From contig JAFDZW010000005.1 of assembly GCA_018266755.1 (NCBI GenBank), positions 1,687,963-1,751,962 of the forward strand: a stretch of DNA of 64,000 bases, in the 5' to 3' direction. A model generated the notes under the pieces. It worked only from the letters and a program-made list of their open reading frames with translations. It was not told the DNA's origin and searched no databases. The DNA comes from Bacteroidota bacterium (GTDB taxonomy: Bacteria; Bacteroidota; Ignavibacteria; Palsa-1295). The translations under genes were made by a program, and so were the position numbers. This document shows, piece after piece, positions 829-51,817 of this stretch (position 1 is the stretch's first letter; each line of letters starts with the position of its first letter).

Positions 829-1524
829 ATGATGTGCCGATCGTTTTTTAGCGTACTGATCTCTGCCTGTCTCTGCCTCGCCTCCTGCGATGCAACACCG
901 GACGGGAAGGTCGAGAAAGTCCTTAACGGCTTCCAACGATGGAATGACGCTGTGCAACAATCGGCCTTCAGCCAGACCAAACGTGCACCCCAAATCGAGG
1001 ATAAGGATCTGACGCCGGAATCGAAATTTCGCGTCAACAACTACGATACCGATACCCCGCCATCCGATACCACCGATAACTGGCGGCTGCTCGTCACCGG
1101 GAAGGTGAAGCATCCCGGCTATTATTCACTCGCCCAGATCAAGGAGTTGGCGAAGCAGGTACAAAATTCAAAGCATGTTTGCGTCGAAGGATGGAGCATG
1201 AACGTTAAGTGGGGCGGTGTCGCCCTGTGGTATTTCCTCGATTGGGTCGGCGCCGATTCAACGGCCCCATACCTGTACGTCGAGTGCGCAGACGGTTACT
1301 ACGAGGGCTATGACATGGCAAGTGTCCGTCATCCCGAGACACTTCTCTGCTACGAGGCCTACGGCAAGCCGTTGACACTGAAGCATGGCGCTCCGTGCCG
1401 CATCGTGATGCCAACGAAACTTGGATACAAGAGCGCAAAGTGGCTCAGGAAGATGATCATCACCGACAAGAAGCCGGGAGGCTATTGGGAAGATCAGGGG
1501 TACGATTGGAATGCGGGTCTCTAA
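829..1524 (+). CDS. Molybdopterin-dependent oxidoreductase lipoprotein (sulfite oxidase/MsrP fold)
   Basis: The 231-residue product has the sulfite oxidase-type Moco fold seen in MsrP/YedY. Cys118 in KHVCVEGW is the expected molybdenum ligand, and the HGAPCRIVMP and GYKSAKW motifs near residues 186-204 bind the pterin or shape the active site. The N terminus is a lipoprotein signal (LCLASC, Cys20), so the enzyme should be membrane-tethered outside the cytoplasm. There is no twin-arginine motif, and an in-frame TGA at 811-813 with no intervening start rules out a longer N terminus, although Moco proteins are normally exported folded by Tat. The next gene encodes a cytochrome b-type membrane protein, the probable electron partner. 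Substrate is unknown; methionine sulfoxide, sulfite or another oxyanion are options. Confidence 0.85.
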   Translation: MMCRSFFSVLISACLCLASCDATPDGKVEKVLNGFQRWNDAVQQSAFSQTKRAPQIEDKDLTPESKFRVNNYDTDTPPSDTTDNWRLLVTGKVKHPGYYSLAQIKELAKQVQNSKHVCVEGWSMNVKWGGVALWYFLDWVGADSTAPYLYVECADGYYEGYDMASVRHPETLLCYEAYGKPLTLKHGAPCRIVMPTKLGYKSAKWLRKMIITDKKPGGYWEDQGYDWNAGL

Positions 1525-2167
1525 GGCAATGCGAGTCAAGAACGGTAAGGCATATCATCATCCGATCATCGTCAGGCTAACACACTGGCTAAACTTCGTC
1601 GCACTCTGTTTGATGATTGCAAGCGGTATGCGTATCTTCAATGCGTCTCCGCTCTTCGATTTCAAATTTCCACATGTAATCACGCTCGGCGGCTGGCTTG
1701 GCGGGGCACGTCAGTGGCATTTCGCCGCAATGTGGCTCTTCGTATTTAACGGCGTGGTTGCAGTGACCTACAACATTATCTCGCGTCACGGCCGCACGAC
1801 AACGATCTTTCGCACGTCGGACATCGGCGGAGTACTTCCAATGATCCGCTATTACTTGCGTCTCGACAAGCAACATCCGCCGGTCGAGAAATACAATGCA
1901 TTACAGAAGCTCGCCTACACCACTACGCCGTTTCTCGGCCTTGGCGTCGTACTCTCGGGGCTGGCGATGTATATGCCAGTCACTTTACAAGAGATCACGT
2001 TCATCTTCGGCGGATACGAGCTTGCACGATGGTTTCACTTCCTATTCATGTGCGGACTCATCGCCTTCTTCCTCGGGCATCTGTTCATGGTCTCCATCTC
2101 GGGCTGGTCAAACTTCTGGTCGATGATCAGCGGATGGAAACGAGTCGATGCACATCAACGGACGTAG
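1511..2167 (+). CDS. Membrane cytochrome b subunit (thiosulfate reductase/hydrogenase cytochrome b type)
   Basis: This 218-residue protein has about four hydrophobic helices and histidines placed as in the di-haem cytochrome b561/NrfD-like anchors: HHPIIVRLTHWLN at the first helix, RQWHF before the second, and histidines near residues 178 and 193 (ARWFHF, GHLFMV) in the last helices. Such subunits exchange electrons between the quinone pool and a periplasmic redox enzyme. The start at 1511 overlaps the upstream molybdoprotein gene by 14 bases; an in-frame ATG at 1529 leaves a short gap instead. Either way the two genes are coupled and likely form one membrane-bound complex, analogous to MsrP-MsrQ but with a different cytochrome. 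It ends 4 bases before the convergent 2172 gene. Confidence 0.85.
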   Translation: MRVSKAMRVKNGKAYHHPIIVRLTHWLNFVALCLMIASGMRIFNASPLFDFKFPHVITLGGWLGGARQWHFAAMWLFVFNGVVAVTYNIISRHGRTTTIFRTSDIGGVLPMIRYYLRLDKQHPPVEKYNALQKLAYTTTPFLGLGVVLSGLAMYMPVTLQEITFIFGGYELARWFHFLFMCGLIAFFLGHLFMVSISGWSNFWSMISGWKRVDAHQRT

Positions 2168-48628: not shown

Positions 48629-49099
48629 ATGCCACACACTACTATCGACTCACCCATCGGCCCGATCGTCATTCGTGCAAATGATCGTGGCATCACCTCC
48701 ATCTCGTTTTCTGATGCCCTCGCATCCGACTCCGAACACTCCGCGATCGTCGACCTCGCTGCTCGTCAACTCGCAGAGTATTTCGAAGGCACGCGAACGG
48801 TATTCCAACTGCCGCTTGATGCAGGAGGTACCCCATTCCAACGGCGCGTGTGGAATGCATTGCTCGATGTCCCGTTTGGAAAAACTGCGTCGTACCTACA
48901 GATCGCCCGGCTCTTGGGCGATGAGCAAGCAATCCGAGCCGTCGGGCTCGCCAATGGGAAGAATCCGATCGCCATTGTCGTACCGTGTCACAGAATCATC
49001 GGCTCCGACGGTTCGCTTACCGGGTACGCAGGCGGACTTTGGCGCAAGGAGTGGTTGTTGCGCCATGAAGGCGTGCTGAACCAGACAACGTTGTTCTAA
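48629..49099 (+). CDS. ogt: Methylated-DNA-protein-cysteine methyltransferase
   Basis: The 156-residue suicide repair enzyme has the family active site IVVPCHRIIGSDGSLTGYAGG with the acceptor cysteine in PCHR, and the winged-helix motif FQRRVWNALLDVPFGKTASY with the arginine finger region. It removes the alkyl group from O6-alkylguanine. There is no N-terminal Ada domain. It ends 20 bases before the ECF sigma gene of the persulfide operon and may be read with it. Confidence 0.95.
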   Translation: MPHTTIDSPIGPIVIRANDRGITSISFSDALASDSEHSAIVDLAARQLAEYFEGTRTVFQLPLDAGGTPFQRRVWNALLDVPFGKTASYLQIARLLGDEQAIRAVGLANGKNPIAIVVPCHRIIGSDGSLTGYAGGLWRKEWLLRHEGVLNQTTLF

Positions 49100-49119: not shown

Positions 49120-49722
49120 ATGGATGTAGCAGCGTTATCCGGATTTGGCGATGATGCCACAGTGATCGCCTCCGCGAAAAGCGGCGACGAGAAGGCATTT
49201 CGCGAACTGGTCCGCCGGTACCAGGATACAGTCTATCGCTTTGCGTTCAACGTCTGCCGCGATCAGGACAAAGCAGCTGAGACGCTCCAGAATACGTTCA
49301 TCAACGTCTACCGCAAGCTCGATACGTTCGACGGTCGCTCGAAATTCTCGACCTGGCTCTATAGCATCGTCACGAACAACTGCCTGATGCGCCGTCGCTC
49401 CGATAGTACGCGCCGGCAGGAGCTTTCGCTTGACGATCCGCTCATCGAAGCAGAGACATCCTCGTTAGCTTCCGATGCCGAGACCGTCTCACCGATGCAT
49501 GCGCTGCTTGAGGGCGAGCTCAAAGAAGTATTCGACAACGCGATCCTGAAACTTCCCGTCGATTACCGCATCGTATTTGTGATGCGCGATCTCGAAGACA
49601 TGCCCGCCGCAGAAGTATCGAAAGCCCTTGGCATTTCGGTTGCCGCAGTTAAGTCTCGCCTTTTTCGCGCACGAGAATTCCTGCGTAAGCAACTACGACC
49701 GTATGTGGAGGACTCGTTATGA
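49120..49722 (+). CDS. ECF RNA polymerase sigma factor (RpoE type)
   Basis: A 200-residue ECF sigma factor. Region 2 includes VCRDQDKAAETLQNTFINVY and the melting segment RSKFSTWLYSIVTN; region 4 has MPAAEVSKALGISVAAVKSR as the helix-turn-helix. Its stop overlaps the start of a small zinc-finger anti-sigma factor (ATGA). Downstream genes of the same operon encode persulfide dioxygenase and rhodaneses, so sulfur stress is a reasonable trigger. Autoregulation is likely for such pairs but the promoter motif is not evident by eye. Confidence 0.93.
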   Translation: MDVAALSGFGDDATVIASAKSGDEKAFRELVRRYQDTVYRFAFNVCRDQDKAAETLQNTFINVYRKLDTFDGRSKFSTWLYSIVTNNCLMRRRSDSTRRQELSLDDPLIEAETSSLASDAETVSPMHALLEGELKEVFDNAILKLPVDYRIVFVMRDLEDMPAAEVSKALGISVAAVKSRLFRAREFLRKQLRPYVEDSL

Positions 49723-49958
49723 AACAGATGCAGTGTGAAGACGTCCGCCGACTCGTCGGCGAAGGGCTGAACATCGAGCGCAATTCGCCGACGTGTTTGT
49801 CCGTCCGCGAACATCTCTCCACGTGCGACGACTGCCGCGAGTTCGTTGCATCGCTCGAAAAAACGATCGATTGCTACCGCACCTACGAGATTCCCAAGCC
49901 CGAAAATCTCGATTCCCTGCTCAAAGACACGATCGATAGCATTACCGGCGCCTCCTGA
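49719..49958 (+). CDS. Small zinc-finger anti-sigma factor
   Basis: A 79-residue soluble protein with the HxxxCxxC zinc motif His32-Cys36-Cys39 (EHLSTCDDC) plus Cys6 and Cys26 upstream, the arrangement of redox-sensing ZAS anti-sigma domains such as RsrA. No membrane helix is present, so sensing should be cytosolic, through oxidation or persulfidation of the cysteines and zinc loss. It overlaps the sigma gene by 4 bases. Downstream comes the persulfide dioxygenase gene after a 49-base gap. Confidence 0.88.
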   Translation: MKQMQCEDVRRLVGEGLNIERNSPTCLSVREHLSTCDDCREFVASLEKTIDCYRTYEIPKPENLDSLLKDTIDSITGAS

Positions 49959-50007
49959 ATCCTTTCTGCGGGATGCTGCATCATATCCCGGTAACAGAGA
50001 GGATTAC

Positions 50008-51120
50008 ATGACTATAAAACAAATACGCTCAACCGACGGGACAGGGACGCTGTCGTACTTCATCATTGACGATGCGACCAAACGCGCCGTCCTGCTCGAT
50101 CCCAATTTCAAAGACGTCGATATGCTCGCCGAACTCGTGGATGTCCTCGGCATCCGCTTGATGGCTATCATCGACACCCATACACACGCCGACCACATCA
50201 GCGGCGCACAAAATCTGAAGGAGATTACCGGCGCGCCGGTCCTGATGCACGAACTCTCGAAAGAGAAATACAAATTTGTCGATCTCGGCGACAAGTTCGG
50301 TATCGGCGACATCCTTCGCGCGAATGTCAACGTGCATATCGATCGCTATCTCAATGACGGCGACATCCTGCACATCGGCGACCTGTCGATCAAGGTCATT
50401 CACACGCCCGGACATACGAACGATCATATCGCGTTGCTCGTGGATGGGCATCTCTTCACCGGCGACGTGCTGCTGATCGGTCAAGCCGGACGCAGCGATC
50501 TGCCGAGCGGCAATACCGACGAGCAGTACAAGACGATCTTCTCCACAATTCTGAACCTTCCGGAGAGCACCGTCATCCACCCCGGTCACGATTACGAAGG
50601 CCACGAATCGGCGTTACTCGCAGACGAGAAGCGGACGAACCCGTTCTTGCAAGCACGTACGGAAGCCGAATATCGCGAATTCGTCCACGAATTCTTCCCG
50701 CCGATGGCCGATGCCGAAGGCGGACACGTCGTCTTGCAATGCGGTGCGAAACGCATCGAAAGCGATCACGAAGGCTATGTTAACATTCGAGCCGACGAAT
50801 TGCAACGAATGATGGCAACCGACAAAAATCTCGTCGTTCTCGATGTTCGCGAGGCATTCGAGTTGAAAACATTCGGAGCGATCGACGGCGTCGTGAATAT
50901 CCCTGTCGGCGATATCATCTACCGCAAAGCGAACCTCGATGAATACAAAGGCAAGTCCGTCGCTGTCATTTGCCAGACCGGCGGCCGGTCAATGGAGGCA
51001 GCGCATGTACTTACGTCTCGCGGTTTCAAGAATGTCTATAATGTTGTCGGCGGCACCCTTGCGTGGATGATGGCCGGCCTTCCCGTAACACGCCCGAAAC
51101 GCAAAGGAATATTCGCATGA
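50008..51120 (+). CDS. Persulfide dioxygenase-rhodanese fusion (ETHE1-like)
   Basis: The 370-residue protein has a metallo-beta-lactamase domain of ETHE1 type followed by a rhodanese domain. Iron ligands are visible: His58, His60, Asp62 and His63 in THTHADH, His136 in TPGHTNDH, Asp153 in FTGDVLL and His194 in HPGHDY; GRSD at 161-164 is an ETHE1 substrate-pocket motif. The rhodanese active-site Cys322 is in ICQTGGRS. The protein should oxidise glutathione persulfide or a similar low-molecular persulfide to sulfite, with the rhodanese moving sulfane sulfur. The ATG at 50008 follows an AGAGGA ribosome-binding site. The stop overlaps the next start. Confidence 0.93.
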   Translation: MTIKQIRSTDGTGTLSYFIIDDATKRAVLLDPNFKDVDMLAELVDVLGIRLMAIIDTHTHADHISGAQNLKEITGAPVLMHELSKEKYKFVDLGDKFGIGDILRANVNVHIDRYLNDGDILHIGDLSIKVIHTPGHTNDHIALLVDGHLFTGDVLLIGQAGRSDLPSGNTDEQYKTIFSTILNLPESTVIHPGHDYEGHESALLADEKRTNPFLQARTEAEYREFVHEFFPPMADAEGGHVVLQCGAKRIESDHEGYVNIRADELQRMMATDKNLVVLDVREAFELKTFGAIDGVVNIPVGDIIYRKANLDEYKGKSVAVICQTGGRSMEAAHVLTSRGFKNVYNVVGGTLAWMMAGLPVTRPKRKGIFA

Positions 51121-51551
51121 GAATGAATTCTGCCCTTCTGACCCGGCTTCGTCTCCTCGTTGTCTTCGCCACGCTCGGCGTTGCGGTTGCATCGTGTTCC
51201 GACGGTGCAGCACAATCCTACAAAACCTACACGCCGGCCGAAGTGACGACGTTCCTCAAGCAGGATACTACGGCCGTCGTGCTGGACGTCCGCACCCCGG
51301 AAGAATACGCAAGCGAGACGGGACATCTCAAGAACGCCAAGCTCATTCCGGTCCAACAACTCGAAGACCGAATCGGCGAGCTTGCATCGGTCAAGAACAA
51401 GACGGTCGTTGCCTATTGCCGTAGCGGCCATCGCTCGAAGCAAGCCTCGGAGATCCTTTCAAAGAAAGGGTTCAAGATCATCAATATGGATGGCGGCATC
51501 ACCGCATGGAATGCTGCCGGGTTGCCGACCGAACAAGGAGCAGCGAAATGA
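51117..51551 (+). CDS. Rhodanese-domain lipoprotein
   Basis: A 144-residue lipoprotein (LGVAVASC, Cys27) with a single rhodanese domain; LDVRTPEEYASE and the active-site loop AYCRSGHRSKQA with Cys101 are intact. It should handle sulfane sulfur on the outer face of the inner membrane or at the outer membrane, complementing the cytosolic fusion. It starts inside the previous stop (ATGA) and ends overlapping the next gene (ATGA), so the operon is tightly coupled. Confidence 0.93.
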   Translation: MRMNSALLTRLRLLVVFATLGVAVASCSDGAAQSYKTYTPAEVTTFLKQDTTAVVLDVRTPEEYASETGHLKNAKLIPVQQLEDRIGELASVKNKTVVAYCRSGHRSKQASEILSKKGFKIINMDGGITAWNAAGLPTEQGAAK

Positions 51552-51754
51552 CGAAGTTCAGACGCTTCATGCGCTGGGCAATGCTGCCCATCGGTGCGAT
51601 CGGAGGATATCTCTACTATCACTTCGTCGGCTGCCCTGACGGGACGTGTGCCATTGCATCGAACCGTGAGTACATGATCCTGTACGGGATCTTCATCGGA
51701 TATTTCATCGGGGCATTGTTTGTCCCGGCGAAACAGGAGAAGGTAGCTCAGTAA
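51548..51754 (+). CDS. Small membrane protein, DUF6132-like
   Basis: A 68-residue protein with two hydrophobic helices (MLPIGAIGGYLYYHFVG and YMILYGIFIGYFIGALF) separated by CPDGTCAIASNR, a conserved CxxGxC loop typical of the DUF6132 group that is often found near thioredoxin and rhodanese genes. The two cysteines might take part in sulfur or thiol exchange at the membrane; this is inference. It is the last gene of the operon, followed by a terminator. Confidence 0.85.
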   Translation: MTKFRRFMRWAMLPIGAIGGYLYYHFVGCPDGTCAIASNREYMILYGIFIGYFIGALFVPAKQEKVAQ

Positions 51755-51779
51755 CGACAAACCTTTCCCCACAAGCAGG

Positions 51780-51817
51780 ACGACGTCATTGGGTGGATGG
51801 CGTCGTTCTTCTTTTTT
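51780..51817 (+). terminator. Intrinsic terminator of the persulfide operon
   Basis: Stem ACGACGTCAT / ATGGCGTCGT (with a G-U pair) around a 7-base loop, followed by TCTTCTTTTTT. It starts 26 bases after the final stop. Confidence 0.9.

Follow-up and report, generated by a model that had tools for sequence, protein, structure and literature searches.

A zinc anti-sigma and ECF sigma factor pair linked to persulfide dioxygenase and rhodanese genes in a bacterium of the Bacteroidota

The window analyzed here is a 64,000-nucleotide (nt) stretch of a 3.55-Mb Bacteroidota genome (GCA_018266755.1, contig JAFDZW010000005.1; G000), from the class that holds Melioribacter and other Ignavibacteria. It encodes an extracytoplasmic function (ECF) sigma factor and a zinc anti-sigma (ZAS), followed by an ETHE1-type persulfide dioxygenase-rhodanese fusion, a rhodanese lipoprotein, and a small membrane protein. 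Judged from protein motifs and a predicted promoter, the sigma/ZAS pair very probably switches on these sulfane-sulfur detoxification genes upon thiol/sulfur imbalance. All coordinates are those of the whole window.

Genes at the locus

Domains were called by Pfam and NCBIfam profile searches of the window proteins. The cassette contains the following features.

48629..49099, plus strand: methylated-DNA--protein-cysteine methyltransferase (MGMT/Ogt), by profile match; left border of the cassette
49120..49722, plus strand: ECF sigma factor, 200 amino acids (aa); Sigma70_r2 2e-17, Sigma70_r4_2 1e-17
49719..49958, plus strand: ZAS anti-sigma, 79 aa; zf-HC2 2.5e-5, above cut-off
49956..49983, plus strand: predicted sigma promoter; the sole perfect motif copy in the window
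50008..51120, plus strand: ETHE1-type persulfide dioxygenase-rhodanese fusion, 370 aa; Lactamase_B 4e-17, Rhodanese 3.5e-17
51117..51551, plus strand: single-domain rhodanese with a lipoprotein signal; rhodanese 1e-18
51548..51754, plus strand: DUF6132-like two-helix membrane protein, 68 aa; divergent DUF6132 match, 0.013, below cut-off
51777..51809, plus strand: intrinsic-terminator-like hairpin, 14 pairs then TCTTTTTT; ends the cluster

An earlier note on this DNA had described the five genes from sigma to the DUF6132-like protein as directly fused in one operon with a single terminator. All five open reading frames are present at the positions it gave, on the plus strand, and so are its three ATGA overlaps (sigma/ZAS, 49719–49722; ETHE1/rhodanese lipoprotein, 51117–51120; rhodanese lipoprotein/DUF6132-like, 51548–51551). 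The hairpin at the cluster end is long and well placed, in line with the single terminator, in a terminator scan that was overall no richer than shuffles. The genes are adjacent but not fused. The 49-nt gap between ZAS and ETHE1 carries a perfect sigma-type promoter, so the cluster is not simply one five-gene operon. There are probably two transcription units, namely sigma-ZAS and a trio of ETHE1-rhodanese, rhodanese lipoprotein, and DUF6132-like genes with its own promoter. Only 20 nt lie between MGMT and the sigma start; sigma-ZAS may therefore be transcribed from upstream, and the row may begin at MGMT rather than at sigma.

Base-excision or alkylation repair genes lie directly upstream of sigma both in the window (MGMT) and in Melioribacter relatives (an HhH-GPD glycosylase; loci L056, L057, and L081–L092). 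This could be coincidence or a hint of alkylation stress.

Promoter motif

The motif was derived by spaced-word enumeration over 59 sigma-upstream regions, one of them from the window and 58 from relatives; none is a known ETHE1 promoter. The commonest dyad, GAATC-N16-CATC, occurred in 26 of the 59 regions. The derived motif, TGAATC-N15/16-GCATCA, has ECF-like spacing and scored ≥9 in 43 of 59 regions versus 7 of 59 shuffled ones. It mostly ends 3–8 nt ahead of the sigma start codon. At L057, L058, L085, L088, and other loci, the −10 GCATCA ends 3–6 nt before that codon, which predicts a sigma mRNA with little or no leader. Upstream of the window sigma there is no autoregulatory copy (best score 7.5/12), and this region thus contributed nothing to the derivation.

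The window promoter consists of a −35 TGAATC (49956–49961), a 16-nt spacer, and a −10 GCATCA (49978–49983). It is the only perfect copy within the 64 kb, against 0.04 expected. A weight matrix built from 42 sites scored it at 26.5, versus 16.8 for the next-best place in the window. Because a motif derived from sigma-upstream regions reappears before ETHE1, the support for linkage is independent of adjacency, and the regulatory link from sigma/ZAS to the ETHE1 and rhodanese genes is well supported at the sequence level. A generic GAAC...CGT ECF motif was useless, with ~680 matches.

Two other perfect copies occur in the source genome (C1:508828 and C2:12280), with no convincing downstream gene start. 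A relaxed search of the source genome gave 16 matches versus 8 in the control and no additional clear target, and no motif-bearing thioredoxin- or OsmC-type target was found there. The source genome encodes a type III sulfide:quinone reductase (NF049943, 2e-191), and the copy at C1:508828–508855 (L153 1501–1528) lies ~200 nt upstream of this gene, facing away.

Sigma factor, anti-sigma and downstream enzymes

The closest solved relatives of the sigma are SigW and RpoE (E = 1.5e-28 and 2.7e-24, versus 9e-12 for SigH). It may already have a published ECF group number in the Casas-Pastor classification.

The ZAS has the zinc-ligand pattern C6-x25-H32-x3-C36-x2-C39 plus C26, and is soluble, with no membrane helix. 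Its model is four-helical (residues 6–15, 24–35, 37–55, and 64–76; predicted local distance difference test [pLDDT] 88), and its top fold match, a weak one, is RsiW (probability 0.82, E 0.4). An Hx3Cx2C motif across helices 2 and 3 and a gene adjoining an ECF sigma place it among class I zinc anti-sigmas (ZAS/ASD-I), and the N-terminal cysteine ligand, C6, 26 residues ahead of H32, is that expected of the redox-sensing (RsrA-type, CHCC) kind (PMC4960319). The zinc ligands of RsrA are C11, H37, C41, and C44, a spacing identical to that of the window ZAS, and the cysteine at the first position decides RsrA redox responsiveness (PMC4960319). In the cyanobacterial PerR of Synechococcus PCC7002, polysulfide or sulfane sulfur expels zinc from a cysteine site (PMC9952342). 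By analogy with these two cases, sulfane-sulfur sensing by the ZAS is chemically plausible. The ZAS is predicted to bind zinc, to repress the sigma, and to be triggered through its cysteine chemistry.

C26, H32, C36, and C39 are invariant in a 30-row ZAS alignment. The CHCC set and C26 are kept across 55 ZAS homologues, the first zinc ligand being Cys in 52 of them and His in the other 3; one extra homologue, at L084, has lost the motif. The window ZAS is without the additional helix-1 cysteine that most clade members have. In some relatives the ZAS gene is followed by another ZAS-like gene (G060, G014, and L070; from the sigma start, 1336..1602 at L040 and 1414..1698 at L070; also L032).

The best PDB match of the ETHE1-rhodanese protein is BpPRF (5ve3), a PDO-rhodanese fusion, with phmmer E 8.7e-41 and both domains matched in two separate stretches. 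As in BpPRF, a metallo-beta-lactamase (MBL) persulfide-dioxygenase domain with the HxHxDH motif (THTHADH at 57–63) precedes a rhodanese domain with the catalytic cysteine (C322 in CQTGGRS). The rhodanese lipoprotein has a catalytic-loop cysteine, C101, and a lipobox-like VASC. The DUF6132-like protein scores 15.5 bits versus a gathering cut-off of 23.2 and has two cysteines, C29 and C34 (CPDGTC). Its homologues recur beside orthologous sigma/ZAS pairs, where DUF6132 matches pass the cut-off and reach 6.7e-10.

Distribution and regulon in relatives

Of 61 sampled relatives, 32 have a sigma orthologue, in most cases with a ZAS after it, and the ZAS profile matches 72 of 396 genomes of the phylum. 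Distant sigma/ZAS pairs are present in Methylomirabilota and Eisenbacteria and, with OsmC next in line, in Caldilineales of the Chloroflexota. The five-gene order, whose conservation the earlier note had proposed to check, was looked for among the sampled relatives and not found; in this sample it is unique to the source genome.

Within the class sample, the sigma directly adjoins an ETHE1-rhodanese of this type in only two genomes. In G005 the order is DUF4175-sigma-motif-ETHE1, the motif lying 51 nt ahead of ETHE1. Ca. Kapaibacterium SKYG14 has sigma-TauE-motif-ETHE1-rhodanese, and in G057 the motif precedes an ETHE1 gene unlinked to the sigma. At the same genomic site as in the window, G002 has DUF4175-MGMT-ETHE1-KYNU with neither sigma/ZAS nor a motif before ETHE1, and G006 has an empty site, DUF4175-MGMT-KYNU. 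One genomic site thus provides natural controls: a full cassette, ETHE1 without sigma or motif, and an empty site. ETHE1 also occurs without the motif in G033, which has its sigma elsewhere, and in G102, so the sigma-ETHE1 link is not universal. Sigma lies near ETHE1 without an adjacent ZAS at L031 (G005), L055 (G037), L074 (SKYG14), and L061 (G034).

The earlier note's reading depended on the pair staying with sulfur genes, and this holds only in part. In most homologues the pair's neighbors are thioredoxin, OsmC, PDO, DUF302, and YgaP-TM genes rather than ETHE1, and in three genomes the sigma is near ETHE1 with no ZAS. A second motif copy is often found just after ZAS in relatives, before OsmC, thioredoxin, or YgaP-TM genes. 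The layout of sigma-ZAS, promoter, and effector genes is therefore a clade theme, of which the window is the ETHE1/rhodanese instance.

Of 50 sigma orthologues, 30 have thiol/sulfur genes in the 3.5 kb downstream, versus 1 of 45 other ECF loci (p 2e-10, a value that is partly circular because the query set was drawn from these same operons). For sites unlinked to sigma, gene families were fixed beforehand from the sigma-linked operons, and perfect copies were scored for a gene of these families within 90 nt. A thiol/sulfur gene followed 7 of 67 unlinked perfect copies in sigma-bearing genomes and 0 of 48 in genomes with no sigma (p = 0.02). The seven sites precede a rhodanese, OsmC, three thioredoxins, DUF302, and DUF1858. 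Motif-bearing targets noted post hoc in relatives are glutaredoxin, DsbD, and octaheme tetrathionate-reductase-family cytochromes (TIGR04315, 2e-146 for one and weak for another). Multiheme cytochromes related to this family have a strong upstream motif in G059, G032, and G041 (L243, L257, and L268). That the regulon could be read from the motif alone was considered and rejected; perfect copies are equally dense with and without sigma, and most lie inside genes.

Proposed mechanism and alternatives

Zinc-loaded ZAS would keep the sigma inactive. Reactive sulfur or another thiol oxidant would attack the zinc site at C6, C36, and C39, and C26 could serve as a partner; upon loss of the zinc, the ZAS would refold and let go of the sigma. 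Free sigma would guide RNA polymerase to TGAATC-N15/16-GCATCA promoters. The clear target in the source genome would be the 49956–49983 promoter, firing the ETHE1-rhodanese, rhodanese lipoprotein, and DUF6132-like genes, whose products would oxidize persulfide and transfer sulfane sulfur, bringing the signal down. A cytoplasmic thiol/sulfane-sulfur switch acting through this promoter is likely. Sequence comparison supports the genes, the motif and its tie to the sigma lineage, and targets of a thiol/sulfur kind; promoter use and enzyme activity are inferred.

Several observations weigh against such a switch. In some ZAS members the first zinc ligand is a His, which abolishes redox release in RsrA. 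The ZAS profile finds no match in the assemblies of G005 (67% complete), G037, and G034, which carry the sigma. The window sigma is without the autoregulatory motif copy that most orthologues have. The TGA of the window −35 doubles as the ZAS stop codon, which somewhat lowers the information of the match; the probability that the remaining nine fixed bases landed in the ZAS-ETHE1 gap by chance would still be small. Genome-wide motif density is 0.55 per Mb in sigma-bearing genomes versus 0.54 per Mb in those with no sigma, so most unlinked matches are chance and single ones are untrustworthy without position. The partial circularity of the downstream enrichment belongs on this side as well.

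Which signal frees the sigma can be read in several ways. A general disulfide or electrophile stress switch like SigR/RsrA, with ETHE1 an incidental target in this lineage, has somewhat less than an even chance. The CHCC ligands with RsrA spacing and the thioredoxin, PDO, OsmC, and glutaredoxin genes at linked or motif-bearing loci fit it, and the MGMT of the window and the HhH-GPD glycosylase found upstream in many of the Melioribacter relatives may point to alkylation stress. However, the clear target in the source genome serves sulfane-sulfur removal, no motif-bearing thioredoxin- or OsmC-type target was found in that genome, and sulfur-specific families recur among relatives.

The earlier note had proposed that the anti-sigma itself senses persulfide or polysulfide. 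As a dedicated sensor, the ZAS would be specifically modified by persulfide or polysulfide, through persulfidation or polysulfide bridges among C6, C26, C36, and C39. This is a serious candidate, though on balance a doubtful one. The one well-placed perfect site in the source genome precedes a purely sulfane-sulfur operon, C26 is invariant, and the sulfide:quinone reductase, with its perfect site upstream facing away, is a persulfide source. Targets in relatives include rhodanese, TauE, DUF302, DUF1858, and the octaheme tetrathionate-reductase-family cytochromes. General thiol-redox genes in relatives' operons (thioredoxin, PDO, glutaredoxin, OsmC, and DsbD) argue against it. Thioredoxin also serves in clearing polysulfide links (PMC10044876), so the gene list cannot settle between a persulfide and a general thiol signal. 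Of the earlier proposal, the link to sulfur genes stands through the promoter motif, and the ZAS has the CHCC set that confers thiol reactivity on RsrA; with the general thiol neighbors, a role in thiol/sulfane-sulfur stress at large is a better fit than sensing of persulfide alone. Persulfide is a plausible specific signal and a leading candidate, unproven in view of the pair's ties to general thiol genes in relatives and of a five-gene order that they do not share.

A sigma that is itself controlled through cysteines C46 and C88 in region 2, with the ZAS an add-on lost in some lineages, is improbable. Both cysteines are conserved in 60 of 62 orthologues versus 6 of 49 and 14 of 49 other ECFs, and are also kept in ETHE1-linked sigmas whose assemblies yield no ZAS. 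They may instead be structural or promoter-specificity residues, and a divergent anti-sigma could have been missed through gaps in the assemblies or the search.

Chance adjacency, with sigma/ZAS controlling something else and an unrelated ETHE1 promoter, agrees with the two direct neighbors in the class sample and the motif-less ETHE1 genes of G033 and G102, but is very unlikely given the perfect motif in the 49-nt gap and before ETHE1 in three other genomes (one unlinked), and its absence in G002, where the sigma is missing.

The switch proposed here may belong to an ancient ECF-sigma/zinc anti-sigma lineage for which sulfane sulfur is the native signal, spread through Ignavibacteria and Kapaibacteria and having homologues in Chloroflexota and Methylomirabilota. 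Attack on the CHCC site plus C26 would free the sigma for persulfide dioxygenase, rhodanese, thioredoxin, and tetrathionate-reductase-family genes, and the sigma's own invariant cysteines might take over where the ZAS was lost. We hold this wider proposal only tentatively.

Comparison with known systems

The persulfide regulators known from bacteria are DNA-binding proteins of the classical sort, and SigR/RsrA, the sigma switch best known for sensing thiols, is from Actinobacteria. The known persulfide sensors named in the earlier note, CstR, SqrR/BigR, and FisR, belong to the CsoR, ArsR, and Fis families of DNA-binding proteins (PMC9774590). They too control sulfide/persulfide detoxification genes through cysteine chemistry, whereas the window regulators carry sigma-70 region 2/4 and zf-HC2 domains and no DNA-binding domain of those families. 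No on-target report linking an ECF or anti-sigma to persulfide, polysulfide, or sulfane sulfur was found in the full-text literature, subscription papers being mostly outside the search. PerR of Synechococcus PCC7002 is a precedent for sulfane sulfur expelling zinc from a regulator's cysteine site, but it is a repressor with a Cys4 site, not an anti-sigma. BpPRF (5ve3–5ve5) shares domain order, HxHxDH, and rhodanese catalytic cysteine with the window fusion, which is distant in sequence and would likewise oxidize persulfide.

Bacillus SigW/RsiW (5wuq) is the closest solved sigma and ZAS by sequence. However, RsiW is membrane-anchored and HHCC-type, with a structural zinc, and responds to envelope stress via proteolysis, unlike the soluble CHCC window ZAS.

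The promoter of Streptomyces SigR is GGAAT-N18-GTT, which differs from the lineage motif described here. SigR/RsrA, like SigH/RshA, resembles the window pair in its soluble ZAS adjoining the sigma gene, identical ligand spacing, a cysteine (C31 in RsrA) at the position of C26, and thiol-homeostasis targets that include thioredoxin in the window's lineage too. The window ZAS scores 18.5 bits versus the 62.5 cut-off of TIGR03988 (antisig_RsrA) and falls outside that family; its sigma is nearer SigW/RpoE than SigH, its targets include persulfide dioxygenase and rhodaneses, and its host is a member of the Bacteroidota rather than Actinobacteria. Whether an anti-sigma can sense persulfide is directly testable with this 79-residue protein. 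The lineage would add a second sigma/anti-sigma route to thiol and sulfane-sulfur homeostasis, apparently an independent one; it comes from a little-studied branch of the Bacteroidota and has a defined promoter motif. The window pair is predicted to work like SigR/RsrA but outside that sequence family, on a SigW/RpoE-like sigma lineage and clade-wide.

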